From Castellaniella denitrificans (GTDB lineage Bacteria > Pseudomonadota > Gammaproteobacteria > Burkholderiales > Burkholderiaceae_B), in NCBI RefSeq assembly GCF_027214045.1, contig NZ_JAPWHE010000006.1, forward strand, positions 1 to 64,000: 64,000 nucleotides of DNA, in the 5' to 3' direction. The notes under the pieces were generated by a model. That model searched no databases. It was not told the origin of the DNA and saw only the letters and a list, made by a program, of their open reading frames with translations. Below, one piece after another: positions 5,364 to 49,263 of this stretch (positions are counted from its first letter, which is position 1; every line of letters begins with the position of its first letter). Made by a program: the position numbers and the translations under genes.

Positions 5364-5396
5364 ACCAGTCCACTGAAAAAATCCAGGCGCTTCTGT

Positions 5397-6950
5397 TTAC
5401 AGATCCAGGCAACCTTGCAAGGGCGCCGATGCCTTGCGTCGGTTGGTTCGATTGCGCGGAGTGGCGCCACGGCGCGAGCCGTGTTTTTCCACGATCGCCG
5501 CCTTGGCCGCACGCACGGTTTCTTGGGCGCGCAGCGCGTGCATGCGCGCCTTGGCGGCTTTGGTGGCGCTGGTCAGGTCGACCAGGGGAGCCGGAATGTC
5601 CCGCCCCACGTTCACACCGTAGCGCGCTTGCACATCGGGCGGCATGCGCCAGGGTTCGAACAGCCAGGCGTCGGGCACGCGCCGCAGCGCCGGCACCCAG
5701 CGGCGCACGAACAGGCCCCTAGGGTCATGATCCTGCGCCTGCTTGACCGGGTTGTAGACGCGGGGGGCGTTGATGCCGGTGGTGCCAGCCTGCATTTGCA
5801 TCTGGCTCCAGTGGATGCCGGGTTCGTAGTCCAGGAACTGCCGCGCCAGCCACAGTCCGACCGGGCGCCAATGCAGCCATAGCGGATAAGCGGCCACTGA
5901 CACCAGCATGGCGCGCATGCGGAAGTTGATCCAGCCGGTCTCGCGCAGCATGGCCACGCACGCGTCCACCATGGGCCAGCCGGTCTGGCCCGCTTGCAGG
6001 GCTTCGAAGTAGGCGGGGTTCCATTCATCTTCGCGCAGTCCGTCGTAGCCCCGGTGCAGGTTGCGCCACTCCAGCCCGGGCTCGGATTCGAGCTTCTGGA
6101 TGAAGTGGCAGTGCCAGTGCATCCGGCTCATGAAGGCCGTCAGGCCCTGGCGCAGGCGTCGTGCCTGCGGGTCGTCCATGGCTTTGAGCAGTCTCTGTTG
6201 CCGTTGGGTGGCCTGTACCACTTCACGCATTCCCAGGCTGCCCGACGCCAGATACGGCGACAGGCGCGAGCACGCGGCGGGCGCTGTCAGCGGCGATGAA
6301 ATGCCGCCCCGGTACGAAGCCCCGCGTGCCTCCAGGAAATCGTGCAGCACCCGCATCCCTGTCGTTCGCCCGCCGCGTTGGCGCAGGGGGGGATCGTGCC
6401 TGTCGGCCAGCCCCACCGCCTCGGGCGCCGGCCAGGCGTCGCGCCATGGCAGGGAAACGGATTGCAGGCTGGCTGGCGGCGGCGCCGGCAGACATGGTGC
6501 CTGCATGTGCGCCTGCCACAGGCTGTGCCAGCGATCGCGCGAACGCAGGCGGCGCACGACGCCGTGTTGCGGCCACTCCCGCCATTCCACACCTTGCCGG
6601 ATGCACCAGCGGGCAACAGCGAGGTCGCGGGTATAGGTGGCACCGTTGCCGGTTTCCTCGTGCGACACCAGACGGGCGAAGGGCCGCAGCGCGTGCAGCC
6701 TGGCCAGCACCTCGGACGCCTCGCCCACGGCCAGTTGGAGCGGCGCGCCGCATGTGCGCAGTTGCTGTGCCAGGTCGCGCAGGCTTTCACGCAGAAACTG
6801 GAAGTGCCGCAGGGCGCTGTCCGGCTGCGCCCACAGGCTGGGTTCAAGCACGTACAGGCACAATACCGGCCCATGCGCGGCCGCGTCCAGCAGGGGCGCA
6901 TGGTCGTGTACCCGCAGGTCGCGCTTGAACCAGACGACGGTGTAGGCCAT
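5397..6950 (-). CDS. phr: Class I deoxyribodipyrimidine photolyase / cryptochrome-like
   Basis: This 517-residue protein has the N-terminal antenna domain (VVWFKRDLRVHDHAPL) and the C-terminal FAD domain with SRLSPYLASGSLGMREV, LESEPGLEWRN, GQTGWPMVDA, WINFRMRAM and the FLDYEPGIHWSQMQMQAGTTG-like FAD segment, all typical of light-driven cyclobutane dimer repair. A basic, Arg/Lys-rich tail of about 50 residues follows the FAD domain and is longer than in E. coli Phr. It is the first gene of the minus-strand light-repair cluster and is preceded by a repeated palindromic element at 7009-7037. Whether it is a repair enzyme or a photoreceptor cannot be settled from sequence alone. Confidence 0.88.
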   Translation of the reverse strand: MAYTVVWFKRDLRVHDHAPLLDAAAHGPVLCLYVLEPSLWAQPDSALRHFQFLRESLRDLAQQLRTCGAPLQLAVGEASEVLARLHALRPFARLVSHEETGNGATYTRDLAVARWCIRQGVEWREWPQHGVVRRLRSRDRWHSLWQAHMQAPCLPAPPPASLQSVSLPWRDAWPAPEAVGLADRHDPPLRQRGGRTTGMRVLHDFLEARGASYRGGISSPLTAPAACSRLSPYLASGSLGMREVVQATQRQQRLLKAMDDPQARRLRQGLTAFMSRMHWHCHFIQKLESEPGLEWRNLHRGYDGLREDEWNPAYFEALQAGQTGWPMVDACVAMLRETGWINFRMRAMLVSVAAYPLWLHWRPVGLWLARQFLDYEPGIHWSQMQMQAGTTGINAPRVYNPVKQAQDHDPRGLFVRRWVPALRRVPDAWLFEPWRMPPDVQARYGVNVGRDIPAPLVDLTSATKAAKARMHALRAQETVRAAKAAIVEKHGSRRGATPRNRTNRRKASAPLQGCLDL

Positions 6951-19549: not shown

Positions 19550-20623
19550 ATGAGCAATGATCCTCGCGACCATGGCGGGTTGCGCTTGAAGCAAGCCTTG
19601 CTGCAACTGGGACGCAACGAGATGTTGCGTGCCGAGTTAGTGCGGTGGCTAAAGGCGGCTGAACAGCATTTTGACAGTACCCTCTCTGTGCGAGATGAAA
19701 TTACGGGTCCCATCATCGACGCGTTGCACGCAGATAGCGATCAGTACGAGAAGTCTCTGGAAGATGGGACCAAGTTCAGTTTCTACTATCGAACGAAGAT
19801 TGCTCGCGATTTTTTACTCTCTGATCGAGAGCATCCCTCGCATGTATGGGAACCTCAAACAACACGTTTGTTGAAATACCTGTCTCAGCAAAACGAGGGG
19901 GATGTGCTGGTGGGTGGGGCGTACTTTGGCGATCATGCCATCTTGCTGGGTCGTCAGTTGGTCGGATCCTGCCGTCAGGTGCATTGTTTTGAGCCCAACG
20001 CCGCTCAGGCGGAAATGCTGCAGAAGAACGTTGCTCTGAATCAGCTGTCCAATTTGGTCATTAATCGGACGGGTATCTGGGATGCGACCAACCAACTTCT
20101 CAAGCTCGACGGCTTCGACTCCTTTGCCAATGCAGTGCTGGTGGACGGTGGTGAGGATTCTTTCCCCACAACGACGATAGATGATTACTGCCAACAGGCT
20201 GGTCGTCAGTTGGGCTTGCTGATGTTGGATATCGAGGGGGCAGAGTATCGGGCACTCAAGGGTGCCTTGAATATGCTCAAACGGGATCGCCCTGCGGTCG
20301 TGTTCGAGCTTCACCGTGAATATGTAGATTGGACCTCTGGGTTGTTGCATACGCCGATTTGTGAGTTACTGACCAGCTTGGGGTATACGTTATATGCCAT
20401 CCGTGACTTTAATAGCCATCGTGAGATGGGGAATCAGTTGATTGAATTGATTCCAGCCGGGTCTGTATATTTGGAAGGTCCTCCGCATGGATTCAACATG
20501 CTCGCAGTGCAGGACCGTGCCGTGATAGAGACGGCTTTGTTTCGTATCGTGTCCGGCGTAAGCCCCAAGCTACTGGTACATAAGGACCCTAAGCTGCACC
20601 ATCCTCTTGATGGATTGCAATGA
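19550..20623 (+). CDS. FkbM family methyltransferase
   Basis: This 357-residue protein contains a class I methyltransferase domain of the FkbM type in about residues 110-260: VLVGGAYFGDHAILLGRQL for the SAM loop, HCFEPNAAQAEML, and LMLDIEGAEYRALKGA, the family hallmark. FkbM enzymes usually O-methylate sugars or polyketides, and are common in surface-glycan and flagellin-modification loci. The N-terminal 100 residues are helical and not recognised. GC drops visibly from here compared with the rfb genes, and the 56-base gap before it is AT-rich. Its stop overlaps the next gene by four bases. It probably decorates the sugar or glycan made here. Confidence 0.85.
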   Translation: MSNDPRDHGGLRLKQALLQLGRNEMLRAELVRWLKAAEQHFDSTLSVRDEITGPIIDALHADSDQYEKSLEDGTKFSFYYRTKIARDFLLSDREHPSHVWEPQTTRLLKYLSQQNEGDVLVGGAYFGDHAILLGRQLVGSCRQVHCFEPNAAQAEMLQKNVALNQLSNLVINRTGIWDATNQLLKLDGFDSFANAVLVDGGEDSFPTTTIDDYCQQAGRQLGLLMLDIEGAEYRALKGALNMLKRDRPAVVFELHREYVDWTSGLLHTPICELLTSLGYTLYAIRDFNSHREMGNQLIELIPAGSVYLEGPPHGFNMLAVQDRAVIETALFRIVSGVSPKLLVHKDPKLHHPLDGLQ

Positions 20624-21495
20624 AAGATCAGAGACGCTCTTGTGAGGCTTCTGCGCCACAGGCAACGATCCTAGGCGGTCATGGATTTATCGGCCAAGCG
20701 CTCCACAGCCGCTTGACGCATTTAGGGTGGTCGGTTTGGGTGCCTGAGCGTCAACATCTTTGGCCGGAGGCCGAGCGTGCCTTGGGGCATGTGTTCTATT
20801 GTGCAGGGTTGACGGCAGACTATTTGCAGCGGCCCGCAGATACTGCCCATGCCCATATATGCCTGCTTAATCAGGTGCTGCAATCGGCGCGCTACACCTC
20901 GTTGGTCTACCTGTCTTCTACTCGAGTATATGATGCCTTGGCTGGACACGTGAGGCAGGCGACGGAAGAAATGTCATTACCAGTCCAACCTAGCAATCCT
21001 CGGCATCTGTATGACCTGAGCAAACTTGCAGGCGAGGCGCTGTGCCATGCGCTGGGGGCCGGACGGGCGCGCGTCGCACGTCTCTCGTGTGTTTACCAGG
21101 AAACCAAAGAGGCAACAGGTTTTTTGCCTGATCTGTTGCGCCTGGTCAGCAGCTCAACTACGAGAATTGAGCTTGATTCTTCACCATATTACGTCCGAGA
21201 TTATATTCATTTGGATGATGTGCTAAGAGCGTTGATTGATATTGCCGTTCAGGGTAGGCAAGCAACATATAACGTTGCTTCTGGCGCCAATGTCAGCAAC
21301 GCAGAGTTGGCCGCCTATATCCATCAGGTCAGTGGGAAGCAACTGCATTTTCTGCAGCACGCACAGGGAGAGCCAGGGCCTGTGGCCGATATTACGCGTC
21401 TAGCCGATGAGTTCGGATGGCGCCCGGAGCCTGTGCAGGCCCGGATCTATCGTTATTTGTTAGGTCTGACACATGCTGAAAACGGTTCATATTGA
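20620..21495 (+). CDS. NAD-dependent epimerase/dehydratase (probable 4-ketoreductase)
   Basis: This 291-residue extended SDR has the cofactor loop LGGHGFIGQAL near the N-terminus, VYLSSTRVYD, the catalytic HLYDLSKLAGE (YxxxK), YYVRDYIHLDDVLRAL and TYNVASGANVSN. The pathway in this locus otherwise lacks an enzyme to reduce the C4 keto group after methylation, so this is the natural candidate for that step. A true epimerase role is possible. It overlaps fkbM by four bases and the acyltransferase gene by 23 bases. Codon use is less GC-rich than in rfbFG. Confidence 0.78.
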   Translation: MKDQRRSCEASAPQATILGGHGFIGQALHSRLTHLGWSVWVPERQHLWPEAERALGHVFYCAGLTADYLQRPADTAHAHICLLNQVLQSARYTSLVYLSSTRVYDALAGHVRQATEEMSLPVQPSNPRHLYDLSKLAGEALCHALGAGRARVARLSCVYQETKEATGFLPDLLRLVSSSTTRIELDSSPYYVRDYIHLDDVLRALIDIAVQGRQATYNVASGANVSNAELAAYIHQVSGKQLHFLQHAQGEPGPVADITRLADEFGWRPEPVQARIYRYLLGLTHAENGSY

Positions 21496-22123
21496 GCAAG
21501 AACATATGGTTGCGTATGTGCGGACGCAGTTAGAACGGTTGTTTCCCCTGCCAGATATGCCCGATTTGACTGTGTTGGTTCGATGTATGCCGGTTGCATT
21601 GAAGCGATTGCATCGTTGCATTAATGAAGTCAAGCTCTGGGCGCCGGATCGATTTGATGTCTTGCATTCGACGCAGTATTGCATTTTTTTATACTACTTG
21701 GCCAATACGATTTGGAAGGAAACCGGCGAGCGAAGCGTCTGTACCCTATTGTTCTTGCTGAACAAGGCGCTTAATGGCATTGACCTGTTCTACGAGATCG
21801 AGATGCCAGAGGTCTTTTTTATTGGACACTCAGTGGGGATCGTGCTTGCCAAAGCGTCCTATGGCAACTATCTCGTACTGTATCAAAACTCGACTGTAGG
21901 GAAAAACCATGGAGTGGCGCCCGTGTTGGAGGATCGCGTCATCATGTATCCAAACACGGCGATCATTGGACGCAGCCATGTGAGATCCGGTTCGGTGATT
22001 GCTCAAGGCGTCAGCGTGATTAATACAGATACACCGGGAGATTGCTTGGTCTTTTCTGGATCTGATGGGCGTATTTTGTTTAAAGATGTTAAAAGAGATT
22101 TTTTCAGAGATTTTTTTAATTAG
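21473..22123 (+). CDS. Left-handed beta-helix (serine acetyltransferase-like) acyltransferase
   Basis: This 216-residue protein has an alpha-helical N-terminal part and a C-terminal hexapeptide-repeat region: IDLFYEIEMPEVFFIGHSVG, then VLYQNSTVGKN, LEDRVIMYPNTAIIG and VRSGSVIAQGVSV. The arrangement is that of CysE-like acetyltransferases. In this context it more likely O- or N-acetylates a sugar than serine, since no cysteine genes are near. The start at 21473 lies inside the preceding gene. An ATG at 21506 is an alternative. It is the last gene before an AT-rich gap of about 110 bases (22124-22235) that may hold a separate promoter. Confidence 0.72.
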   Translation: MLKTVHIEQEHMVAYVRTQLERLFPLPDMPDLTVLVRCMPVALKRLHRCINEVKLWAPDRFDVLHSTQYCIFLYYLANTIWKETGERSVCTLLFLLNKALNGIDLFYEIEMPEVFFIGHSVGIVLAKASYGNYLVLYQNSTVGKNHGVAPVLEDRVIMYPNTAIIGRSHVRSGSVIAQGVSVINTDTPGDCLVFSGSDGRILFKDVKRDFFRDFFN

Positions 22124-22235
22124 ATTAAGCCTGCCTGATTTTATAGATTTAATTCATTAAATTATAAATTAATTTCAATTAAATATTTTTACTGTGCAGC
22201 TAAATTTTGTGCAAAACAATAGGGTGGATTGATAT

Positions 22236-25200
22236 ATGTTTTCTGGGGATTTGATTGACTTTCCTGCCATCCCTGAGTCGGCAAAATTTGCTATTCTGAT
22301 TCCTACTGCAAGATGGGATTTTAAAGTTAGAGCTATTCTAGCTTCTTTGATTGGTGTTGCGGGTGGGGATGTTGTAGTTTTGATTTCTGATAACAGTGAA
22401 ATCACAGAAAAGCATGAATTTTTAATGAATATAAAAAATATAAATAATAATATATTTTTCTATGCTCATAAAAAAAATATTGGCGCCATCGATAATTTTT
22501 ATTTCCTCCATCAGTGGTGTGCCAATGTTGAGTTTAGTGCCATTATGGCTGACGATGATTTTGTTTCCCCGGAATATTATTTGGATGCCTATAATTCATT
22601 TTTGAAGAATGGGCGGGCATCATGCATATCTGCTGGTGCGGTTTTTGTTGACTTTGGTAATCGACAATTTCATAAAATTAATCAACCTACAATGGAAGGT
22701 GAGTGTCCAATTGATAGGATACGTTATTGGAACGGCTGGGCACCACGAGTTACTATGTACGATGTTAGTCGGCGAGTAACACTTAATCCGGCTATTGATT
22801 TTTTAATAAATACTCCTCTCCAAGGGCTCACCTTGATGGAGAGTATTTTTGAGCTAAGTAGATTATCACAAGGAGATTTCCATCAACTTTCAGGAAAGGG
22901 TTTCTTTGTTCATTATCCCTTTCATGGAGGAGGTGGCGGAGAGGAATTTGATAGGTTTTATAAATTGCTTTTCGAGGGCGTTGGATTAAAATTTCCAATG
23001 GTTTACTTCATGAAGCTTAGCACTGCCGTGCAGTGCGCTGTTTTTCTTCAAGGGAGGTTTTCTCCAATTGTTGATGAAAATCAAAAAAAGATATGTGCGC
23101 AGCATGTTTTTCGGCATTTGTTTTTTGATGGTTTTATTGCGGCCGATTTATCCAGGGATGGGGTTCGGATTTTTATAAGAGGTTTGCTTAAAGACAGCGA
23201 TTCTGCTTTAGTTGGATTTGATTATTATTGTAATTTAAAAGATAAAAATTCAATTGAATTTGATTTTGGTTTTGTAAAGTGGTTCTTGGAGATAGTTAAG
23301 TTATTTGAATCTCCTGCTGAAGACGGGAAGGAACTGCTTTCGGAAAAATTTGCCAAATTTTGCGCAGATGCTTTGAATGTGGGTGTTTCGGCTATAGATC
23401 AAGCGGTTATCGGTAGGGATTCCAGTGCAATTTCGAGTGATGAAAGGGCATTGCAATGGTCTGTCCCCAATTGGATGAATGAGCGCGCTCCATCTGCCGC
23501 CCGCATTCTCGCCATTCAAGCCATGTTGCAAACCAACCCTGATGTGGGGACGCTGGGTGTTGCCGTGGTTGTGCCGGATGACTCAGACCCGCATGTTCTG
23601 GTCGATACCTTGGATAGCTTGGCCGCACAGCACAGGCCTGTAGATAGTATCTGGCTTATTGGCCCCCAGATTCCGCCTGAAGCAGTAGGTGGGATGGTTG
23701 AAGCCGTCATCGGCAATGAACCCTGGCCTGCGCTGTTGTCCCGTAAAATCGAGCAAGGTAGCGCACCTGATTTCCTATGGATTTTGTATGCGGGAGATCA
23801 ACTGCTCCCTCATGCCTCTTTGACGCTGGGCGAATACCGCTTGCGCAATCCAGATCCTTTGATCTGGTATGCCGATGAAACCGTTTTGCAAAACGGTGTG
23901 GCGGCCAACCCGATGCTCAAACCCGATCTCAATATCGATCTGTTACGCAGCTACCCCTATGTTGGCCGGAATCTTGTGCTTAGTACTGCAATGATTCAGG
24001 CGGTAGGCGGGCTTGATGCGAGGGTGGCCGACCTAGCCCCGATCGATTTGGTCTGGCGCCTGGTCGAGCAGGCGGGTCCGCCTGTGGTGGGGCATATTCC
24101 CGAGGTCTTGCTGCATGCGTCGGTCGGTTTGATGGACTGGGTCCGGGATACGAGTACGCAGGTCTGGTCCCCCGTAGTGACACAGATGCACTTTGAACGC
24201 ATGGGAGTAGATGCGCAAGTTCAGCTTGGACCTGCTTTGGGATTTTTCCGTGTGGAATATCCCTTGTCTGAGCGGCCCTTGGTGTCCATCATCATTCCAA
24301 CACGCGATCACTTTGTCGTGCTGCGTGATTGCGTTGAAGGCTTGATGGAACATACCGCCTACCCAAACTACGAACTGTTGATCGTGGATAACGGTAGCGT
24401 GGATCAAGAGGCTTTGGGCTTTTTGTCCGGTCTGGAAGGCATGGGCACGAATCAGGTACGCGTGTTGCGTTGGCCACAAGCCTTTGATTTTGCCGCTATC
24501 AATAACTTTGCCGTTGAACAGGCGCGAGGCGATGTCTTGCTCTTTCTGAACAACGACATTCAATTTTCGCCTCAGACGCGCTCGGATTGGCTGGAACGTC
24601 TGCTGCGGCTGGCCGTGCGCCCCGAGGTCGGCATGGCTGGTGCTCGACTTGACTTGCCCGATGGTCAGGTTGATCAGTATGGCCTGGTGCTTGGATTGGA
24701 TAATAGTGTGGGGGCGGCATTCCGGGGGATGGCCTCCGACGCACAGGGGTATATGTATCGTCTGGTTGTGCAGCAGAACGCCAGTGCGCTGAGCGCGTCG
24801 TGCCTGATGATGCGGCGGACGGTTTTCCAGGAATTGGGCGGCTTTGACACGCAGGCGTTCCCGGTGTATCACGCAGATACAGATTTGTCTTTGAAAGCGA
24901 CGCAGGCGGGTTATCTACTGGCTTTGGAACCCGAGACCGGTTTGCAGCATATGGGTGGAGCCACCCGTTTGCTGAAGGAGAAATTCGGCCTAGAGGCTCA
25001 TCCAGACGACGATCAGCGCGATCGCCTCTACGCCCGCTGGCTACCACAACTGGCGCGTGACCTGTATTACCATCCAGCATTTGATAAATCTATTCCCGGA
25101 TTTAGTTTGAGTCGGGATGCTGCGCGGATTCACGACCCCTTGCCGGGGCGCCCCTTGCCAGTGGTGTTGGCCTCGCATTCGGATTGGCACGGTTGTGGTC

Positions 25201-28200
25201 ATTATCGGATTCTTCATCCATTCCAGGCTCTGGCGGGTGAGTTGCGCACTGAAGGCGGTGTTAAATACCGGGATTTTCACTTTACAGATGTAGCGCGTAT
25301 CCAACCGGATGTGATTGTGCTGCAAGGGGCTTGGCTCAATGAAGGTATTTTGACCCAGATCAGGCGTTACCGCGAGATTACCGGCGCCAAGGTTGTGCTG
25401 GAGTTTGATGACTATTTACCCAACATCCCGACCCGCAGCGCTTATCGCAAGACGTTTAAGCAAAGCTGGATCAAGCAGATGCGCCGGGCCATCGAGCAGG
25501 TGGATTGGCTGGTGGTATCCACTCCTGTGCTGGCTCAGGAGTATGCCGGGTTCCATGGTGATATCCGGGTCGCTCAGAATGGCTTGCTGCCTGCGTGGTG
25601 GGGGGGACTGGAGGGTCGTCGCCGTGCGGGCAAGAAGATGCGCGTGGGTTGGGCGGGCGGTAGCAGTCATACCGGAGATTTGGCTGAGCTCCGTGCTGTC
25701 ATCAGAGATCTGCAAGACGACGTAGAATGGGTATTCATGGGCTCGAAGCCGGACGGTATTTCATGTGAGTTTCATGCTGGCGTCCCGATTGCGCAATACC
25801 CAGCCAAGCTGGCATCATTGAATTTGGACTTGGCGGTCGTGCCTCTGGAAATGAACCAGTTCAACCGCAGCAAGAGCAACCTACGCTTGTTGGAACTGGG
25901 CGCGTGTGGGGTACCGGTAATCTGTACAGATATCGAACCTTACCAAGGGGAGCTGCCTGTTTCACGCGTGCGCAATCGCCCTCAGGACTGGGTGCGGACG
26001 ATTCGCGAGCAACTGGCAGATCCTGTGGCCTTGGCACAGCAGGGCGACGCGCTGTGCGATGCGGTGCTACGCGATTGGATGCTGGAGGGCGCTTTCCTGG
26101 ATCAGTGGGTCCGTGCGTGGGGCGTGGCGCCTGCGGGGGAGCCCGAACCGCTAGCTCGGCAGGAGATCGTGGTGACGTCTCAGTCGGAATTGGTTGAGTC
26201 TGGCGCTGTGATCAAACCTCAGGAATCTGGTGCGTTAACTACAAATCCGACGGCAGCCCCCCTTCCTTCTGCTGCTGTGCGTGAAATGAGGGTAGCGAAG
26301 TCTCGGTCACCAAGCTCTGACTCAGAGGATCCATTGTCTCGTTGGCTGGCTAAGCGGGTATTCAGTCCAGCGCAATCCAGATTGTTGACTGAATATTTTT
26401 CTCAACAAGGCGGTATGCCCAAGGTTGCACTGTTTATTCAGTGGATAGAGCAGGATGCCGGCGCCTTGGCGCGTACGTTGCGTAGCCTGGAATCCCTATG
26501 TGACGGTTTTTCTCCGACGCAAATTTTTGTCGTCGGAGGGCAAGCGTCGAATTTACCCTCCACCATGCCACAGTTGCAGCATGCGCCCGCCGGCGATGCG
26601 GTTCAAGTGCTGGATGTCGTCAACCGCCTGGCGGGCGAACTGGCATGCGACTGGCTATTGGTCGTTGATGCGGGAGATGAGTTCACCTCCGCGGGCTTGC
26701 ATATGCTGGCCCAGCATATATTGGCTGCGCCGGATACGCGCGCGGTGTATGGCGATGAAATGGCGCGCGATGCGTCGGGGCAGTTGTCGGCCTTTTTTCG
26801 CCCGGATTTCAATCTGGACTTATTGCGCTCGACACCCGCCACGATGGCGCGCCATTGGGTCTTCCGCCGGGATGTGTTCCTGAAAGCTGGGGGCTTTGAC
26901 CCGGATTTTGGCGATGCGGCAGAATTTGATCTGTTGTTGCGCTTGATTGATAGAGGGGGGGTGGCCGGCTTGGCGCACATCGCGGAGCCTGTGTTGGTGA
27001 CCTCGATGCCGGTCTTTGAAACCAAGGCATCCGAAGAAAAAGCGCTGCTGCGCCATGTGCGTAACCAAGGCTATGAGTATGCGGCGGTTTCCGCGCATCT
27101 GCCAGGCTGCTATCGGGTGCAATATGGACATCAGGAAAAGCCCGGTGTATCCATCATCATCCCGACGCGCAATCAGTTGCCCATGCTGCTGCGCTGCGTG
27201 GATAGTTTGCTGGAAAAAACCACCTATCAAAATTACGAGGTTCTGATCGTAGACAATGGCAGCGACGAGGCGGATGCCTGCGCGTGGCTGGATGGGATCG
27301 AGGCGATGAACAGCCCCCAATTGCGTGTGTTGCGCTACCCGTATCCCTTCAATTATTCAGCTATGAACAACCTAGCGGCCAGCCAGGCGCGGGGTGAATA
27401 CCTGGTGCTGTTGAATAACGACACGGCCATTCTGCAGTCCGATTGGCTGGATGCCATGCTGAATCATGCCCAGCGCCCGGAGGTAGGTGTGGTGGGGGCC
27501 AAGCTTTTGTATCCTGATGGTCGCATTCAGCATGCCGGCGTTGTGTTAGGCCTGCGCGGGCCGGCGGATCACCCCTTTATCGGTGGCGATTCCAACCAGC
27601 CGGGTTACATGTATCGGCTGCAGGTGGATCAGGACTACAGCGCCGTCACTGCGGCATGCTTGATGATACGTGCGTCGCTTTATTGTGACGTGGGCGGGCT
27701 GGACGAAGGCGCGTTCAAAGTTTCCTATAACGACGTTGATCTGTGCTTGAAGGTGCGTGAATCGGGGCATCTGCTGGTCTGGACGCCTCATGCCGTGTTG
27801 ATGCATGAAGGCAGCGTCAGCCAGAACAAAGTAGATATCACGGCGGTGCAGACCAAAATACAGCGATTCCGGGCAGAGCAGGATGCGTGTTATGCCAAGT
27901 GGATGCCGACCATTGCGCGTGACCCTGCGTACTCTCCGCTCCTGACCTTACAAGGGCATGGCTTCAGTGTGAATACGCGGGCGGAACTCAATTGGCAGCC
28001 GCTGCGTTGGCGGCCTTTGCCCGTGGTGCTGGCTGTGCCTGCGGATCGTCAGGCTAGCGGCTATTATCGGGTTGTGCATCCCGGCCGGACGCTGAATATC
28101 TCAGGTCTGGCGGCAATCGGCATTAGCGATCAAAGCGACCTACTGATTGAAACAGAACGCCTAGCTCCGGATACCGTAGTATTTCAGCGCCAGGTTCGGG

Positions 28201-29003
28201 TGGATCAGATTGATGCGCAGCAGCGCTTGGCGAAATTCTCCCATTGTTTTAAGGTGGCGGATCTGGATGATTACTTGCCCACTCTGCCTGGCAATAGCGC
28301 GTACCGAGAGCACCAACCCAAAGAAATCTTGAAGTTCATGCGGGAATCCTTGGCGCTGGTGGATCGTCTTATCGTGTCTACCGAGCCATTGGCGGAAGCC
28401 TTGAAGGGCTTGCACCCTGATGTTCGAGTGGTGGAAAACCGGCTTTTCGTGCCGGATTGGTCCTCACTATCCAGTTTGCGCCGACAGGGACGAAAACCGC
28501 GCGTGGGCTGGGCCAGCGGGTTGGATCATTACAATGATTTGGATCTGATCGTGGATGTGCTCAAGGCTTTGGCGGATGAGGTTGAGTGGGTCTTCCTTGG
28601 AGCTTGCCCCGATGCAATCCGGCGCTATGCGTATGAGTGGCATGCTGAAACCAGCATGGATGACTATCCTGCGCAACTGGCCAGCCTGAATCTTGATGTG
28701 GCCTTGGCGCCGCTGGCAGACACGCGCTTCAACCAATGCACAAGCAACCGGCGTGTGCTGGAGTACGGCGCTTGTGGTATCCCGGTCGTTTGCAGTGATG
28801 TGCAGCCTTATCGCGGCAATCTGCCGGTCACGCGGGTCAACAAGCCGCGCTTCAAGGATTGGGTGAATGCGATCCGCATGCATACGTATGATCTGGATGC
28901 GTCCGCCCAGGCAGGCAATGTCTTGCGCGATGCGGTGCTACGCTCTTGGATGTTGGATGAGAGACATGCGGAGACTTGGCGAGCGCAGTGGGTGGGGAAT
29001 TGA
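22236..29003 (+). CDS. Giant multidomain glycosyltransferase (2255 aa, duplicated GT modules)
   Basis: Seven sections can be read. Residues 1 to about 395 form an AT-rich GT-A-like domain (FAILIPTARWD, MADDDF). About 400-675 is a degenerate GT2 domain (WYADE). About 680-945 is an intact GT2 (VSIIIPTRDHF, LLFLNNDIQF, YHADTDLSLK). About 976-1298 is a GT-B-like domain (HYRILHPFQAL, LEFDDYLPNIP, LELGACGVPVIC). A Ser-rich linker follows to about 1390. The set then repeats: degenerate GT2 (1395-1625), GT2 (1635-1905, VSIIIPTRNQL, LVLLNNDTAIL) and GT-B (1930-2255, LEYGACGIPVVC). No signal peptide or membrane segment is seen. It lies 155 bases before fliC, so a flagellin target is likely but unproven. 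Confidence 0.85.
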   Translation: MFSGDLIDFPAIPESAKFAILIPTARWDFKVRAILASLIGVAGGDVVVLISDNSEITEKHEFLMNIKNINNNIFFYAHKKNIGAIDNFYFLHQWCANVEFSAIMADDDFVSPEYYLDAYNSFLKNGRASCISAGAVFVDFGNRQFHKINQPTMEGECPIDRIRYWNGWAPRVTMYDVSRRVTLNPAIDFLINTPLQGLTLMESIFELSRLSQGDFHQLSGKGFFVHYPFHGGGGGEEFDRFYKLLFEGVGLKFPMVYFMKLSTAVQCAVFLQGRFSPIVDENQKKICAQHVFRHLFFDGFIAADLSRDGVRIFIRGLLKDSDSALVGFDYYCNLKDKNSIEFDFGFVKWFLEIVKLFESPAEDGKELLSEKFAKFCADALNVGVSAIDQAVIGRDSSAISSDERALQWSVPNWMNERAPSAARILAIQAMLQTNPDVGTLGVAVVVPDDSDPHVLVDTLDSLAAQHRPVDSIWLIGPQIPPEAVGGMVEAVIGNEPWPALLSRKIEQGSAPDFLWILYAGDQLLPHASLTLGEYRLRNPDPLIWYADETVLQNGVAANPMLKPDLNIDLLRSYPYVGRNLVLSTAMIQAVGGLDARVADLAPIDLVWRLVEQAGPPVVGHIPEVLLHASVGLMDWVRDTSTQVWSPVVTQMHFERMGVDAQVQLGPALGFFRVEYPLSERPLVSIIIPTRDHFVVLRDCVEGLMEHTAYPNYELLIVDNGSVDQEALGFLSGLEGMGTNQVRVLRWPQAFDFAAINNFAVEQARGDVLLFLNNDIQFSPQTRSDWLERLLRLAVRPEVGMAGARLDLPDGQVDQYGLVLGLDNSVGAAFRGMASDAQGYMYRLVVQQNASALSASCLMMRRTVFQELGGFDTQAFPVYHADTDLSLKATQAGYLLALEPETGLQHMGGATRLLKEKFGLEAHPDDDQRDRLYARWLPQLARDLYYHPAFDKSIPGFSLSRDAARIHDPLPGRPLPVVLASHSDWHGCGHYRILHPFQALAGELRTEGGVKYRDFHFTDVARIQPDVIVLQGAWLNEGILTQIRRYREITGAKVVLEFDDYLPNIPTRSAYRKTFKQSWIKQMRRAIEQVDWLVVSTPVLAQEYAGFHGDIRVAQNGLLPAWWGGLEGRRRAGKKMRVGWAGGSSHTGDLAELRAVIRDLQDDVEWVFMGSKPDGISCEFHAGVPIAQYPAKLASLNLDLAVVPLEMNQFNRSKSNLRLLELGACGVPVICTDIEPYQGELPVSRVRNRPQDWVRTIREQLADPVALAQQGDALCDAVLRDWMLEGAFLDQWVRAWGVAPAGEPEPLARQEIVVTSQSELVESGAVIKPQESGALTTNPTAAPLPSAAVREMRVAKSRSPSSDSEDPLSRWLAKRVFSPAQSRLLTEYFSQQGGMPKVALFIQWIEQDAGALARTLRSLESLCDGFSPTQIFVVGGQASNLPSTMPQLQHAPAGDAVQVLDVVNRLAGELACDWLLVVDAGDEFTSAGLHMLAQHILAAPDTRAVYGDEMARDASGQLSAFFRPDFNLDLLRSTPATMARHWVFRRDVFLKAGGFDPDFGDAAEFDLLLRLIDRGGVAGLAHIAEPVLVTSMPVFETKASEEKALLRHVRNQGYEYAAVSAHLPGCYRVQYGHQEKPGVSIIIPTRNQLPMLLRCVDSLLEKTTYQNYEVLIVDNGSDEADACAWLDGIEAMNSPQLRVLRYPYPFNYSAMNNLAASQARGEYLVLLNNDTAILQSDWLDAMLNHAQRPEVGVVGAKLLYPDGRIQHAGVVLGLRGPADHPFIGGDSNQPGYMYRLQVDQDYSAVTAACLMIRASLYCDVGGLDEGAFKVSYNDVDLCLKVRESGHLLVWTPHAVLMHEGSVSQNKVDITAVQTKIQRFRAEQDACYAKWMPTIARDPAYSPLLTLQGHGFSVNTRAELNWQPLRWRPLPVVLAVPADRQASGYYRVVHPGRTLNISGLAAIGISDQSDLLIETERLAPDTVVFQRQVRVDQIDAQQRLAKFSHCFKVADLDDYLPTLPGNSAYREHQPKEILKFMRESLALVDRLIVSTEPLAEALKGLHPDVRVVENRLFVPDWSSLSSLRRQGRKPRVGWASGLDHYNDLDLIVDVLKALADEVEWVFLGACPDAIRRYAYEWHAETSMDDYPAQLASLNLDVALAPLADTRFNQCTSNRRVLEYGACGIPVVCSDVQPYRGNLPVTRVNKPRFKDWVNAIRMHTYDLDASAQAGNVLRDAVLRSWMLDERHAETWRAQWVGN

Positions 29004-29050
29004 TACGAACTGAATCGGAGTTGGAGTACAAAAATTTTTCCAGCTGCCCC

Positions 29051-29077
29051 TAAAGTTCTCCGTTTCACCTCCGTTAA
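29051..29077 (+). promoter_or_regulatory. Sigma-28 (FliA)-type promoter of fliC
   Basis: TAAAGTTC (29051-29058), an 11-base spacer, and TCCGTTAA (29070-29077) fit the flagellar class 3 consensus TAAAGTTT-N11-GCCGATAA closely, with seven and six of eight matches. Transcription would start near 29085, about 75 bases before the flagellin ATG. The spacing and position make this the expected late flagellar promoter. Confidence 0.85.
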
Positions 29078-29123
29078 CGAGGCAGAACAGGAGGTCACTC
29101 GGTTTGTCATCCTGGGCAAAAAG

Positions 29124-29138
29124 GGCGAATCCTTCGCC
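29124..29138 (+). promoter_or_regulatory. Hairpin in the fliC leader
   Basis: GGCGAA, a three-base loop and TTCGCC form a compact six-base-pair hairpin ten bases before the AGGAG ribosome site (29148-29152) of fliC. It lies within the predicted leader transcribed from the sigma-28 promoter. It may stabilise the abundant flagellin mRNA or influence translation; that function is inferred from position only. Confidence 0.4.
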
Positions 29139-29158
29139 GAATCTCTTAGGAGTCTCTC

Positions 29159-29989
29159 ATGGCTGTTATCAACACCAATTACCTCGCTCTGGTCTCCCAG
29201 AACAATCTGAACAAGTCCCAAAATTCCCTGGGTACCGCGATCCAGCGTCTGTCCTCGGGCCTGCGCATCAACAGCGCCAAGGATGACGCCGCTGGCCAAG
29301 CCATTGCCAACCGTATGACCGCCCAGATTCGCGGTATGACCCAGGCTGCCCGCAATGCTAACGACGGTATTTCGCTGGCTCAAACGGCTGAAGGCAACCT
29401 GAGCGAAATCAACAATAACCTGCAGCGTATCCGCGAACTGGCCGTGCAAGCCGCCAACGACGTAAACGGTACGGCCGATCGAACTTCCATTCAGGAAGAA
29501 ATCAAGTCGCGTCTGGAGGAAATCGATCGCGTGGCTAAGGGTGCCAAGTTCAACGAGACCCAACTGTTGAACGGCACGGGCACCATCAACCTGCAGGTTG
29601 GTGCCAACACGACCGCCAATGACTCGATCGCCATTAGCACGACTGATGCGACGGTTTCGGGTCTGGGCATCAGTGGTACGGCGTCGGGCGGTGACGTGTC
29701 TACCAGCGGTAATGCGCAGACCATGATCAATGCGATGGATGCGGCTATCAAGAAGGTTGATTCGGCTCGTAGTACTCTGGGCACCTACCAGAACCGTCTG
29801 GAGTCCACCGTTGCCAACCTGAACAACACCATCACCAACCTGTCGGCCTCGCGTTCGCGGATCGAAGACGCGGACTACGCGACGGAAGTCTCCAACATGA
29901 CGCGTTCTCAGATCCTGCAACAGGCCGGCACCGCCGTGCTGGCGCAGGCCAACCAGGTCCCGCAGACCATGCTGTCCCTGCTGCGTTAA
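29159..29989 (+). CDS. fliC: Flagellin
   Basis: This 276-residue protein forms the flagellar filament after export through the type III flagellar apparatus. The N-terminal D0/D1 region reads [20 protein letters not shown] and continues with [19 protein letters not shown]; the C-terminal region ends [12 protein letters not shown]. Both are canonical. The central domain is very short and rich in Ser, Thr, Gly and Ala (about residues 140-185), offering many possible O-glycosylation sites but little folded surface. It has an AGGAG site six bases before the ATG, a sigma-28-type promoter and a strong terminator, so it is probably monocistronic. Its position between glycosyltransferase genes suggests that it is modified. 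Confidence 0.97.
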
Positions 29990-44081: not shown

Positions 44082-45295
44082 GTCGAGCGGCGCCGCGTGT
44101 CGGGCAGGAAAAAGGCCGCCAGGCCAAGCAGAGGCAGAAAAGCGCACACATGGTAGACGAAGGCGATGCTGGTGGCGTCGGCCAGCCTGCCCAGCGCGGC
44201 GGCGCCGATGCCGCCCATGCCGAAGGCCAGGCCGAAGAACAGGCCCGAGACCGTGCCGGTCTTGCCGGGCATCAGTTCCTGTGCGTAAACGACGATGGCG
44301 GGGAAGGCCGAGGCGATCATGAATCCGGCGCAAAAAACCAGGATCAGTGTCCAGTGCAGATTGGCGTAGGGCAGGGCCAGCGAGAAGGGCGCGGTGCCCA
44401 GGATCGAGGCCCAGATCACACGCTTGCGCCCGATGCGGTCGCCGATCGGACCGCCCGTCAGTGTCCCCGCGGCCGCTCCCGCCAGGAACACGAACAGGGC
44501 GTATTGGGCTTGCTGGATGTCCAGGCCGAAGCGGTCGATCAGGAAGAAGGTGAAATAGCTGTTCAGCCCGGCCAGGTAGAAATACTTGCTGAAGATGAGC
44601 AGCAGCAGGATGAGGATGGCACCGCGCACCTGGCGCGGCGACAGGCCGTTGTCGACCTTGCCCAGGGACGCCCGGCCGCGCAGGCCGGACAGGTTGGCGG
44701 CATACCAGCGGCTGACTCCGATCAGGATGCAGATGCCGAGCAGGGCGGCCAGCGACACCCAGGCGACGCTCCCTTGGCCGTGAGGCACGATCAGCAGCGC
44801 GGCCAGGAGGGGGCCGATCGAGGAGCCGATGTTGCCGCCCACCTGGAAGATCGATTGGGCCAGGCCGTGCTGGCCGGCCGAGGCCATGCGCGCCACCCGC
44901 GAGGACTCCGGATGGAAGACCGAGGATCCGGCGCCCACCAGCGTGGCGGCCAGCACCACCAGCGGGAAACTCCAGGCCTGGGATAACAGCAGCAGGCCGC
45001 AGCAAGTGAAGCCCATGCCGACCGGCAGGGAATAGGGCATGGGGTGGCGATCCGTGAATCGCCCCACCAGCGGCTGCAGGAGCGAAGAAGAAAACTGGAA
45101 GGCCAGGGTGATGATGCCGACCTGGGCGAAGCTGAGGTCGAAGCGGCCCTGCAGCACCGGATAGATCGCCAGCAGCACCGACTGCATCATGTCGTTGAGC
45201 AGGTGGGTCAGGCTGATGGCGCCCAGGACGGGAAAGGCGACGCCGGGTTCGGGCCGGACCGTGCCGGATGGCGCCGTGGCGAGGGTGTTTTTCAT
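44078..45295 (-). CDS. MFS transporter, fosmidomycin-resistance (Fsr)-like
   Basis: This 405-residue protein has 12 predicted helices. The opening LGAISLTHLLNDMMQSVLLA, the loop GRFTDRHPMPYSLPVGMGF and GSSVFHPESSRVARMASAGQ are characteristic of the Fsr/YfnC-like exporters, where E. coli Fsr gives fosmidomycin resistance. GPIGDRIGRKRVI is the second-half MFS motif A. It is the first of two overlapping MFS genes on the minus strand. The natural substrate in this organism is unknown. Confidence 0.85.
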   Translation of the reverse strand: MKNTLATAPSGTVRPEPGVAFPVLGAISLTHLLNDMMQSVLLAIYPVLQGRFDLSFAQVGIITLAFQFSSSLLQPLVGRFTDRHPMPYSLPVGMGFTCCGLLLLSQAWSFPLVVLAATLVGAGSSVFHPESSRVARMASAGQHGLAQSIFQVGGNIGSSIGPLLAALLIVPHGQGSVAWVSLAALLGICILIGVSRWYAANLSGLRGRASLGKVDNGLSPRQVRGAILILLLLIFSKYFYLAGLNSYFTFFLIDRFGLDIQQAQYALFVFLAGAAAGTLTGGPIGDRIGRKRVIWASILGTAPFSLALPYANLHWTLILVFCAGFMIASAFPAIVVYAQELMPGKTGTVSGLFFGLAFGMGGIGAAALGRLADATSIAFVYHVCAFLPLLGLAAFFLPDTRRRST

Positions 45296-45448
45296 GAGAT
45301 TGAACGGGCGATGATACCCAATGGATTGTACGCCGGTCCGCTTCATGCGCCGGACGTGATGGACACCATGCCGCGCGCCGTATCCGCCCTCATCGTCTCC
45401 GCAGTACGATCGCGGCTCGGGTTCCATTCTTTCTCTCGGGTTTCCATC

Positions 45449-46330
45449 ATGCCTGTGCGGATTCGCAATTCCTTTGGCGTTGTGTTCGGACGCATGCTGC
45501 TGCGCGGGATCGGTCAGATCTATCTGCTGCCCAGCGCCCGTGCGGGCGCGATCCTGCTGGGCGCTCTGGCCTGGCAGTCCTGGACGCTGGCGGGCGCCTG
45601 TCTGCTGGGCGTGTTGACCGGCACCGCATGGGGTCTGTCCGCGGGCGATGCCGCCGGCAGTCGCGCAGGGCTGGACGGCTACAACGGCGCATTGACCGGG
45701 CTGGGGGTCATGGCCGTGCTGCCGTCCGGGCCGCTCGCCTGGTCCCTGGTGGCGCCGTTGGCCTGTCTGGCCGCCTGGATGACCCATGCCTGGCGCCGCC
45801 GGTGCGCCGTACCGCCTTATACGGCGCCGTTCGTACTCGTGACCTGGCTGCTGATGGCGATGGTGGCCGGCCTGGATTTTCCGCAGGCGGCGGCGCCGGC
45901 CGCCGCCGACCCAGGCTGGGGTGGGGCGACTCAGGGCGTGCTGCGCGGAGTCGGTCAGGTGATGTTCCTGGATGATCCCCGGGCCGGCGCCCTGTGCCTG
46001 CTGGGGCTGGCGCTGGGCGCCCCCCGGGCGGCGCTGTCCGCCGCCCTGGCGTCCGGCCTGTGCCTGTGGGTGGCAGGCCTGGCGGGCTTCCCGGCCGACG
46101 CGGCACAGTCGGGCTTGTATGGTTTCAACGCCGTGCTGGCGGCCGAGGCGCTGCGGATGGTCCGCCCGGGCCGCTGGCTGTGGCCGTGCCTGGGCGCGCT
46201 GCTCAGCCTGGGCCTGATGCGCGGCTTTCAGTTGCTGGAGCTGCCCTCGCTGACGGCGCCGTTCCTGCTGGCGACTTGGGCGGTGCGCCAGGCCGCCCTG
46301 CGCCGGCCGGCTCAGGCACGGACAGCCTGA
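45449..46330 (+). CDS. Urea transporter family protein
   Basis: This 293-residue membrane protein has the twofold repeated design of UT-type urea channels: a first half with RGIGQIYLLPSARAGAILLG and GLDGYNGALTGLGVMAVL, and a second half with RGVGQVMFLDDPRAGALCLL and GLYGFNAVLAAEAL. The paired YNGALTG/FNAVLAA loops line the pore in this family, and the GIGQ-x-x-L/F repeats are typical. It probably conducts urea across the inner membrane. No urease genes are in the window. The ATG at 45449 is chosen because upstream codons lack similarity. Its 3' end overlaps convergent norB by 19 bases. Confidence 0.82.
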   Translation: MPVRIRNSFGVVFGRMLLRGIGQIYLLPSARAGAILLGALAWQSWTLAGACLLGVLTGTAWGLSAGDAAGSRAGLDGYNGALTGLGVMAVLPSGPLAWSLVAPLACLAAWMTHAWRRRCAVPPYTAPFVLVTWLLMAMVAGLDFPQAAAPAAADPGWGGATQGVLRGVGQVMFLDDPRAGALCLLGLALGAPRAALSAALASGLCLWVAGLAGFPADAAQSGLYGFNAVLAAEALRMVRPGRWLWPCLGALLSLGLMRGFQLLELPSLTAPFLLATWAVRQAALRRPAQARTA

Positions 46331-48009
46331 TCGGCGGATTGCCCGAAGTCCGCAGGTGCCGGCCCGGGGGCCGGCCGGGCTTCCAGCGAGGCGAGGAAGC
46401 GCCAGACGAACAGCAACGTGATCAGCAGCAGGCCCGGGTAGCCCAGCCCCGCCAGGATATAGGGGATGGTCGGGTCGCCCTGGGCCACGGCGTCCAGGTT
46501 GAAGCTGAGCAGGCCCAGGGTGATGAAAGCGCCGAAGATCCACATTCCCGCCAGCCACAAGCCGGCTTCCGTGCCGTGCAGCGTGCGGCGCCAGCGGCCC
46601 GGGTTGGCTGCCCGGAAGACCGCCCGGGGCCGGGAGGCGTTGCGCGCGCGCAGTCCCAGCGTCAGCAGATCGTAGATCAGCAGGCCGGCGCCCGCCAGGA
46701 AGATCAGGCCGAACACCGGTACCAGGACCTTGTAGAACTGCATGGCGGGGAAGATTTGTCCGCCGAACCAGCTCAGGCCCATGGCGCGGTACAGGAAGAC
46801 CTGGATCGTGCCGCCGATCGCGAAGGCGAAAGCGATGCCCAGCATGCCGGCGAAGACCAGCCAGAAAGCGATCCGGCCCAGCCGCTGGTCGAAGTCCTTG
46901 ACGCCTCGCAGCAGGGGAATCGCGTAATAGGCCGCCGCGATGCCCAGCATGCCGAAAGTGCCGAACAGCGCCAGGTGGGCGTGGCTGGGCGTGACCCAGG
47001 TGCCGTGCGACCACACGTTGGTCAGCGCGAAGGTCATGGTGAACCCCAGGATGCCCGCCCCGACCTGCTCCAGCACCACCGAGCCCAGGATGAAGTAGAA
47101 GGCCGGCGCGTTTGCCAGCGGTCGGCGATCCTGGTGGGCATCCAGGTAGATGTGCCAGAAGCAGAACACCAGGGGCAGCGGTTCCAGGGCGCTGAACAGC
47201 GACCCCCAGAACTGCCAGAATTCCGGCGTGCCGATCCAGAAATAGTGGTGGGCATTGCCGATCAGGCCCGACAGCCAGACCAGCGCGACCCCCCAGAACA
47301 CGGCGTAGCCGACCGCCTTGACGTCGGCCTTGAACATCAGCACCAGAAGGAAGCCCACCAGGCTGATGTGGATGACTTCCCAGACGCCCTCGACCCAGTA
47401 GTGCACCACGTACCAGCGGAAATATTCCTGCAGGTCCAGCCGCTCGATGAAGAACACGCCGAACAGCCAGACGAAGGTCAGGGCGGTGACTCCGATCGCC
47501 AGCCCCCAGTGGATCTCGTTCCAGTCGCGGCGCGCCGGGAAGGTGCGCAGCACCACCCAGGCCAGAATGGCGAAGCCGACGAAGATGACGACGTCGGCGG
47601 CGCGCCCGGCCTCCAGGTATTCCAGGCCTTCCTGCAGCCAGGGCTGCCCCAGCCACCAGCCGGCGATACCCCGCGCCGCCAGGGACTGGGTGGCGATGTT
47701 CCACAGGGTGACCGCCAGCAGGGCCCAGAACAGGAAGCGGATCAGTCCGGGGGCGGCCAGTTCGCGGCGCGACAGCAGGGGGCCGACGAACAGGATGGTG
47801 CCGATGAAGCCCGACAGGATCCAGAGGATGCCGAGGTTGGTGTGCTCGGCGCGCAGGATGTTGAAGTTGAGAATGCCCGAGAGCAGGCGCGGGTCCACGT
47901 GCTGCACGGCGATCAGCAGGCCGAACAGGACCTGGAACCCGAACAGGATCAGCATCAGCAGGAAGAAGCGCAGGCTCAGGCGCTGCGTGTGGAAATCGAT
48001 CTGGATCAT
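46312..48009 (-). CDS. norB: Nitric oxide reductase catalytic subunit (NorB-like, extended)
   Basis: This 565-residue heme-copper oxidase superfamily protein reduces NO to N2O. All reference residues of cNOR are present at a constant offset of four: His56 and His345 (heme b), His343 (heme b3), His203, His254 and His255 (FeB), and Glu207, Glu211 and Glu276, in VVHYWVEGVWE, GNAHHYFWIG and FSALEPLPL. This distinguishes it from cbb3 oxidases. It is about 100 residues longer than Pseudomonas NorB, with two further membrane helices at the C-terminus (about 475-550). It follows the cytochrome gene by 13 bases. Its C-terminus overlaps the convergent urea transporter gene. Confidence 0.85.
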   Translation of the reverse strand: MIQIDFHTQRLSLRFFLLMLILFGFQVLFGLLIAVQHVDPRLLSGILNFNILRAEHTNLGILWILSGFIGTILFVGPLLSRRELAAPGLIRFLFWALLAVTLWNIATQSLAARGIAGWWLGQPWLQEGLEYLEAGRAADVVIFVGFAILAWVVLRTFPARRDWNEIHWGLAIGVTALTFVWLFGVFFIERLDLQEYFRWYVVHYWVEGVWEVIHISLVGFLLVLMFKADVKAVGYAVFWGVALVWLSGLIGNAHHYFWIGTPEFWQFWGSLFSALEPLPLVFCFWHIYLDAHQDRRPLANAPAFYFILGSVVLEQVGAGILGFTMTFALTNVWSHGTWVTPSHAHLALFGTFGMLGIAAAYYAIPLLRGVKDFDQRLGRIAFWLVFAGMLGIAFAFAIGGTIQVFLYRAMGLSWFGGQIFPAMQFYKVLVPVFGLIFLAGAGLLIYDLLTLGLRARNASRPRAVFRAANPGRWRRTLHGTEAGLWLAGMWIFGAFITLGLLSFNLDAVAQGDPTIPYILAGLGYPGLLLITLLFVWRFLASLEARPAPGPAPADFGQSADQAVRA

Positions 48010-48022
48010 GAGGGCTTCCTTT

Positions 48023-49006
48023 TCACAGGCTGCGCAGGTAGGCCACGATGGCCTTCATGTCGGCCTCGTCGATCAGCGCGTCGTAGGACGGCATGACATG
48101 CGGCGGGTAGTCGGCGACGATCTGGGCGTCGGGCTGGCGGATCGAGCGGACCAGGTAGGCCTCGTCCGCCGTGACGGTCGTGCCGTCGGTCAGCCGGACC
48201 TCGTGGCCGGCCACGCCGCCCCATCCCGGGCCCACCGTGCGCTTCTGGTCGCTGGCGTGGCAGGCCACGCAGCCCAGGTCGGAGACGAGTTGCCGGCCGC
48301 GCGTCACGGGATCCTGGGCTTGAGCGTCGGCCGTGGCAGTGGCCGGAACCGACGGGGCGGTTGCGGCGGCCTGGCCGGATGCCGCGCCGTTTCCGACTGC
48401 CTGCGTGTGTCCGGCCAGGCCGCCGGGAATCCGCCGGTCCTCGCGCGGCTTGGGCGGCCAGCCCTCGGTGTGCAGGGCCGAGGTGTATTTCAGGAAAGCG
48501 ATCAGCGCCGTGACTTCATGGGCGCTGAGCGGCAGGTTGGGCATCAGGGTATGCTGTCCGCCGCGCCGGTCCAGGCGCTCGGCGGCGCCGGGGTAGCGCC
48601 GCAGGTAGGCTTGAAGATCCGCTGTGCCGGCGTCCTCCCGGGCGGCCGGGTTCTGCAATTGGACCCGCACGGCGGCGGACGTGGGCCAGCCGCCCGCCGA
48701 GGGCAGGAAGGCGGCCAACCAGGCGGCGCCGGCGTCGGCGTGGATGCGCGTCAGGTCGGGCCCGAAATAGGCGCCGTTGCCGACGATGGTGTGACAGCCC
48801 ATGCAGTTGTAGGCCTGGAAGACGCGCTTGCCTTCCACCGCGCCGGCGCCGCCGTACTGGATGTCGTCGGGGACGGCCTGTCCGCGCGAAGGCAGGAAGG
48901 ACCAGGCGGACAGCAGCAGGAAGATCGCCAGCATCAGCGCCAGCACGGCCAGGGCTGAGCGGCGTTTGGCCGTTTCACGGCAGTCGGTTCCGTTCAGGCA
49001 GCTCAT
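48023..49006 (-). CDS. Membrane-anchored di-heme cytochrome c: NorC-like domain fused to a COX2-type cytochrome domain
   Basis: This 327-residue protein has one N-terminal membrane helix (about 17-37), then a NorC-like heme domain (CMGCH at 68-72, with IVGNGAYFGPDLTR). A Pro/Ala-rich linker (about 190-225) follows, then a second heme c domain (CVACH at 246-250) ending in DGTTVTADEAYLVRSIRQP and YPPHVMPSYDALI, the pattern of the cytochrome tail of cytochrome oxidase subunit II. No CuA cysteines are seen. Standard NorC is about 150 residues with one heme. It should deliver electrons to the NorB-like subunit. Its ATG overlaps the stop of the small membrane gene. Confidence 0.85.
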   Translation of the reverse strand: MSCLNGTDCRETAKRRSALAVLALMLAIFLLLSAWSFLPSRGQAVPDDIQYGGAGAVEGKRVFQAYNCMGCHTIVGNGAYFGPDLTRIHADAGAAWLAAFLPSAGGWPTSAAVRVQLQNPAAREDAGTADLQAYLRRYPGAAERLDRRGGQHTLMPNLPLSAHEVTALIAFLKYTSALHTEGWPPKPREDRRIPGGLAGHTQAVGNGAASGQAAATAPSVPATATADAQAQDPVTRGRQLVSDLGCVACHASDQKRTVGPGWGGVAGHEVRLTDGTTVTADEAYLVRSIRQPDAQIVADYPPHVMPSYDALIDEADMKAIVAYLRSL

Positions 49007-49263
49007 GGCCGTTCCTCCCGCGCCAGGCTGTCGCGCCCGGCATCCGGGCGCGCCTGTTCGTCGTGCAGGAACAGGGTGCGCAGGCTGCCCAGGAAAACGT
49101 AGAACACGTAGACCGCCAGGACATAGCCCGCGGCGATGTACAGCCACCACAGGGCATGGGATTCCGGCCAATACTCGAAATCCCGCCAATAGGGCCAGGA
49201 CAGCAGCACGCTGACCAGGCCGGCCAGGGCCGACAGCACCCCGTCGATGATGCGTTGCGCCAT
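49003..49263 (-). CDS. Small two-helix membrane protein of the NO reductase operon
   Basis: This 86-residue protein has two hydrophobic stretches (about 5-24 and 38-63) and a charged tail (HDEQARPDAGRDSLAREERP). It matches no family I can name. It is the first gene of the operon and overlaps the cytochrome gene by four bases, so it is probably an accessory or third subunit, comparable in size to CcoQ-like or CoxIV-like subunits. The aromatic-rich loop SWPYWRDFEYWPESHALWWL between the helices is notable. Confidence 0.6.
   Translation of the reverse strand: MAQRIIDGVLSALAGLVSVLLSWPYWRDFEYWPESHALWWLYIAAGYVLAVYVFYVFLGSLRTLFLHDEQARPDAGRDSLAREERP

Follow-up and report, generated by a model that had tools for sequence, protein, structure and literature searches.

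Organization of the operon

The window, that is, the whole stretch of 64,000 nucleotides analysed here, comes from the genome of Castellaniella denitrificans (3.1 Mb in 50 contigs) and carries on its minus strand, at 46312-49263, a tight operon of three genes that runs from a small protein through a di-heme cytochrome to a NorB-like catalytic subunit (Table 1). The genes of P0003 and P0002 share an ATGA overlap, and P0001 starts 13 bases past the end of P0002. The first-pass annotation of this DNA had described a small two-helix protein as opening the operon; the position of its gene was confirmed, and two hydrophobic stretches are predicted from its sequence. P0003 had no match of its own in Pfam, and Thermus NorH was not supported as a relative of P0003, at 19% identity and with a differing layout. 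On the plus strand, a urea transporter gene (PF03253) occupies 45137-46330 and shares its last 19 bases with the 3′ end of norB.

Table 1. Features of the operon and its upstream region (positions in the window; residue numbers refer to the respective protein)
Feature	Position	Strand	Description
P0001, NorB-like catalytic subunit	46312..48009	-	565 aa; 12 core helices plus helices 13 (479-509) and 14 (514-543)
P0001, ligand-type residues			H56, H203, E207, E211, H254, H255, E276, H343, H345
P0002, di-heme cytochrome subunit	48023..49006	-	327 aa
P0002, parts			N-terminal helix 11-37; NorC-like heme domain (C68-C71-H72, M155); linker; caa3/COX2-tail type cytochrome c domain (C246-C249-H250, M305)
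P0003, small membrane-type protein	49003..49263	-	86 aa; first gene of the operon
FNR/DNR-type box TTGATACAAGTTAA	49589..49602	-	9/10 consensus positions; 325 bp upstream of the operon start

Distribution of the three-gene cassette

A single scan of a species-genome collection, which favours close relatives because its search patterns were derived from the protein itself, recovered 75 loci with a NorB at 64-96% identity, the closest named one (96%) belonging to a Castellaniella MAG. In this family, a P0002-like sequence lies beside NorB in 75/75 loci and P0003 is found in 72, the remaining three (L072, L084 and L089) being cut by contig ends. Of these 72 loci, 71 preserve the order of the three frames on a single strand, the exception being L041 from a Roseovarius MAG, where the cytochrome gene (5036-5987) was matched as two pieces, reflecting either a frameshift or an assembly error.

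Family members were found in environmental genera such as Castellaniella, Rhodanobacter, Lysobacter, Luteimonas and Mesorhizobium; others come from MAGs classified as Deinococcota, Verrucomicrobiota, Gemmatimonadota, Planctomycetota and Kiritimatiellota. Among 398 evenly drawn Pseudomonadota genomes, the whole cytochrome was matched only in the genome under study and in one other (60%), indicating that the family is uncommon. It was present in 6 of the 111 Deinococcota genomes searched, and therefore represents more than a single stray contig in that phylum, as well as in 1 of 249 Gemmatimonadota genomes. Spread by plasmids was considered and rejected: 317 plasmid records matched NorB, none of them at 60% identity or above and none covering 80%. 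Within Castellaniella itself, each of ten genomes encodes either this family (G000, G001, G003-G005, G007, G008) or a Thermus-type cNOR (G002, G006, G009), none encoding both, and replacement of one NOR type by the other is thus possible in the genus. A three-gene layout combining a 14-helix NorB with a di-heme cytochrome was not found described in the portions of the literature available to our search.

Active site, fold and C-terminal extension of NorB

The cNOR residues of NorB had been reported to lie at a constant offset of four, and alignment to P. aeruginosa NorB (3o0r_B) reproduced this offset at the ligand-holding blocks. All the ligand-type residues listed in Table 1 were invariant in the 76 family rows, 36 cNORs and 10 qNORs aligned, and family NorB thereby carries both the histidine ligands and the active-site glutamate of C-family NORs. 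Moreover, N300, N331, H335 and R408 are cNOR-type residues, shared with 36/36 cNORs but with only 0, 3, 3 and 0 of the 10 qNORs, respectively. In searches against the PDB, all 13 sequences matched at E <=0.001 were named NO reductases, with the cNORs 4xyd (E 3.3e-61) and 3o0r as best matches. An AlphaFold2 model of NorB (54 sequences, mean pLDDT 81.4, pTM 0.88) likewise retrieved 4xyd and 3o0r on top in Foldseek, with the cbb3 oxidase as a weaker match. The NCBIfam NOR models gave no match for P0001, which is uninformative because none of five tested NorB/qNOR proteins matched a NOR model.

The roughly 100 additional C-terminal residues with two further helices that had been proposed for NorB were borne out by both protein length and structural modeling. 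Family NorB proteins measure 553-610 aa (median 566), compared with 444-479 aa (median 467) in 36 cNORs, and the model displays 14 long helices, the last two of which (479-509 and 514-543) lie beyond residue 446, near which the sequence match to cNOR stops. At three positions checked, the extension region corresponds to gaps in all 36 cNORs and 10 qNORs aligned, while E481 and R537 within it are present in 76/76 family rows. The possibility that the extra helices are a copy of the small protein was rejected (hhalign probability 0.6). In the catalytic core, H214 (helix 6), N252 (helix 7) and E314 (helix 9) are found in all 76 family rows and in 0/36 cNORs and 0/10 qNORs at those positions; N104 is likewise absent from its position in these cNORs and qNORs. 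H286 and D290 (helix 8) also occur in 17/36 cNORs, a number that fits the Thermus-type branch, the individual rows not being itemised.

Domain structure of the di-heme cytochrome

Sequence and fold matches uphold the earlier description of the cytochrome subunit, in which a NorC-like domain is joined to another heme domain resembling the tail of COX2, without CuA. Residues 52-92 and 153-186 of P0002 match P. aeruginosa NorC, and residues 236-325 match the cytochrome c domain of caa3 oxidase (1w2l) in sequence (E 2.7e-15) and in fold (target TM-score 0.90, rmsd 1.3). Domain searches of the cytochrome returned no match to a CuA/COX2 or cupredoxin domain. The second heme domain is therefore of the caa3 type in both fold and sequence, but unlike in caa3 oxidase it is attached to a NorC domain and lacks the CuA domain. 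The separate, membrane-anchored NorC heme c subunit of cNORs is hence present, with the extra heme domain on top. C68/C71/H72, C246/C249/H250, M155 and M305 were invariant in 40/40 aligned cytochromes, and the two methionines probably serve as axial heme ligands. Across 78 distinct NorB loci, 74 cytochrome frames contain two CxxCH motifs, two (L072 and L089) contain one at a contig end, and L041 and L084 offer no usable frame.

Fusion of NorC with a further cytochrome c is also seen next to a short NorB in Alcaligenaceae-family loci (L010, L011, L012, L014, L015), in Gemmatimonadota (L178-L182) and in one Deinococcota genome (L164). These cNORs resemble the family in this fusion but lack the C-terminal NorB helices, and the five Alcaligenaceae-family loci have NorQ adjacent and no P0003 match in their 1.5-kb flanks. 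A tree of the second heme domain placed the family domain with COX2-tail cytochromes, apart from the di-heme cNORs (90/80); a single origin with the latter was not rejected (AU p 0.42), in a short alignment that splits the family's own domains.

Phylogenetic position

Identity of NorB has a floor of 64% inside the family and reaches at most 39% outside it (27-39% for other NORs), as compared in relatives, Deinococcota, Gemmatimonadota, other named genomes and plasmids, the 39% case being a fragment from Deinococcota; intermediate forms may exist in further phyla. Phylogeny of the catalytic subunit against cNOR and qNOR, which had been suggested as a check, revealed a separate deep branch. In one careful tree the family formed one branch (96/100), 23 cNORs another (100/97) and qNOR a third; in the other, the family was one clade (99/98), all 22 cNORs (classic, di-heme and Thermus-type) came together (100/98) and qNOR was again third. 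Both trees contain long branches and are read without an inferred root. A quick tree with a distant ccoN outgroup recovered the same groups (cNOR 94) and left the root open. Grouping the family with the di-heme cNORs was rejected (AU p 0.017, for a group picked after earlier trees and with long branches).

The family therefore falls outside all sampled cNORs, and its position beyond the clade of all 22 supports the initial proposal that this is not the standard norCB layout and may be a distinct NOR subclass. Two elements of that layout proved unsuitable as subclass marks, since a di-heme NorC occurs in some ordinary cNORs and adjacent norQ/norD are missing from the Thermus-type as well, while the remainder held. 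The features that set the family apart are its 14-helix NorB, the COX2-tail character of the second heme domain, a small protein at the head of the operon and the depth of its branch. We regard the family as a real and well-delimited deep NOR lineage relative to the cNORs and qNORs sampled here. The lineage is not categorically new, because both its active site and its overall architecture follow cNOR. Membership in eNOR, sNOR, gNOR or bNOR was rejected: according to the available portions of PMC8756737, these replace the active-site Glu by Gln, Asn or Asp, whereas the family retains Glu, and the cupredoxin-type second subunit that we took as their mark is absent, with no cupredoxin/CuA match.

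Compared with classic cNOR (NorCB; 3o0r from P. aeruginosa, 4xyd from R. denitrificans), the family shares the ligands, the catalytic fold, the NorC-like heme domain and N300/N331/H335/R408, at about 31-37% NorB identity and on a separate branch. However, classic NorB is ~100 aa shorter and lacks the last two helices, classic NorC has a single heme, and NorQ/NorD lie close by in 4/5 classic loci of a 61-genome set, unlike in the family. The Thermus-type cNOR resembles the family in having no adjacent NorQ/NorD and a small membrane-type protein in its operon, but its gene order is norC-norB-norH (T. thermophilus SG0.5JP17-16), so that the small gene lies downstream rather than first, and it possesses a single-heme NorC of ~221 aa and a NorB of ~476 aa. 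qNOR has the same active-site ligands at 27-32% identity and, in the accessible part of PMC3413370, is described as a single chain with a cytochrome fold without heme.

Maturation genes

The claim that no norQ, norD, norE or norF genes flank the operon stood for NorQ and NorD, which tblastn recovered in control loci; the absence of NorE and NorF was weakly probed, their queries having matched only their source record. None of the four gave a match in the window or in the 75 family loci (flanks of at most 6 kb, less where a contig ended). In a set of 61 genomes, 17 carried a non-family cNOR and 8 the family. NorQ (PF08406) and NorD lay within ~5 kb of the non-family cNOR in 10 of the 17, namely in 10/11 genomes of the classic and di-heme side and 0/6 of the Thermus-type branch (branches assigned from the quick tree, G029 by NorQ/NorD and identity only). 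In G055, both genes are present but far from norB.

Among the 8 family genomes, G029 alone has NorD, next to the second, short cNOR of that genome. NorQ was found there too, and a weak match over the cut-off appeared in G000, 98 kb away and at 26 bits, versus 95-112 bits for cNOR-adjacent NorQ. NorD is thus missing from the family and NorQ is doubtful at best. The family accordingly lacks the NorQ/NorD pair of cNORs, which is not a strict mark, as four Thermus-type genomes (G002, G006, G009, G036) are without both.

Regulation and genomic context

The gene context points to NO metabolism. Among the most repeated groups in the flanking ORFs of the 75 loci were NsrR-like Rrf2 regulators (10), CRP/FNR-type regulators (9) and RIC (6), together with an ABC-type ATPase (8) and a cytochrome b561-like protein (8), the last two named by eye. 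One RIC representative scored above its cut-off, and one CRP/FNR representative fitted FixK best, below the cut-off. In 72 upstream regions we identified 26 perfect FNR/DNR-type boxes and 16 at 9/10, against 0 and about 1.7 expected from mononucleotide shuffles of the same regions (20 each), with related loci counted several times and hence not independent. Boxes of at least 9 were found in 0/10 NsrR-linked loci versus 42/62 others (Fisher p 5.6e-5). Two sister loci carry theirs at similar distances to that in the window (L032, 9/10, at 327 bp; L033, 10/10, at 329 bp). The genome under study also contains three nirK matches over the cut-off and one nosZ, and the available portions of PMC11046850 report that Castellaniella MT123 reduces nitrate to N2 and call the genes of the genus norBC, cytochrome-c dependent.

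Proposed function and alternatives

Gene layout, conserved residues, heme motifs, tree position, and regulatory and genomic context, all directly observed, suggest that the three-gene complex is very probably a cytochrome-c-fed NO reductase of the cNOR kind that serves denitrification. We infer its activity, electron order, donor, maturation route and the role of its small protein as follows. A periplasmic cytochrome c or cupredoxin would deliver electrons to the C-terminal caa3-like heme domain, an entry point suggested by the caa3 comparison, from where they would travel via the NorC-like heme and then heme b to the heme b3/FeB site of NorB, at which two NO would be converted to N2O. The tethered second cytochrome may then supply electrons from within the complex, as happens in caa3 oxidases, while NorB helices 13-14 and the small protein could be structural or assembly elements. 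The enzyme would mature without NorD and probably without NorQ, and the operon would be made under low oxygen or NO, with qNOR as a second NO reductase of the genome. We counted against this reading that the one NsrR-like representative, although matching NsrR best, falls under the NCBIfam cut-off; that 20/62 loci without a nearby NsrR have no good box; that the box in the window deviates from the consensus and lies far upstream of the operon; that 15/18 genomes checked hold another NOR match besides the family; and that the genome under study itself encodes a qNOR. In the other 3/18, including Mesorhizobium denitrificans LA-28, the family is the only NOR match, whereas Castellaniella defragrans DSM 12141 has a single qNOR-type match in addition to it.

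With the same activity, the complex might instead be a divergent cNOR that is functionally no different, its helices, second heme and small protein being decoration. The four cNOR-type residues, rare or absent in qNORs, the cNOR fold match of NorB and the di-heme NorC of some ordinary cNORs all fit this idea, which we consider plausible yet not the better choice, as the family lies outside every sampled cNOR and as both the NorB extension, with E481 and R537 conserved throughout, and the small protein are found again in different phyla. A role chiefly in NO detoxification rather than respiration would agree with the NsrR-like regulators near 10/75 loci and the RIC repair genes beside 6/75, but seems unlikely given the boxes in 42/62 of the other upstream regions, nirK and nosZ in the same genome, and a presumed cytochrome-c coupling that would suit respiration. 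Least probable by far is a low-tension O2 reductase, or an enzyme that reduces O2 as well as NO, fed by a caa3-like donor: the caa3-type domain and the weaker cbb3 match hint in this direction, whereas the NOR-site glutamates E207 and E276 are invariant and Table A4 of PMC8756737, in the portion available, lists Tyr for oxygen reductases versus Glu for cNOR/qNOR.

It is also rather improbable, although conceivable from the sequence, that the family constitutes a third glutamate-type NOR lineage that ranks with cNOR and qNOR and has an electron wire of its own and a path that leads protons in from the cytoplasm. Judging from sequence and helix order alone, H214, N252 and E314 together with H286 and D290 could form a K-channel-like route; if so, NO reduction would be electrogenic, unlike in classic cNOR. 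NO reductases produce the greenhouse gas N2O. The family lends itself to the study of FeB insertion where NorD is missing; it also allows a natural test of whether NO turnover is accelerated by a tethered cytochrome, and possibly one of electrogenic NO reduction.

Apart from the operon, the window contains a low-GC stretch at 19550-29989 (0.41 at 22-24 kb), which holds a 2255-aa multi-domain glycosyltransferase frame, an FkbM methyltransferase, an epimerase and flagellin, and is perhaps a flagellin glycosylation island.
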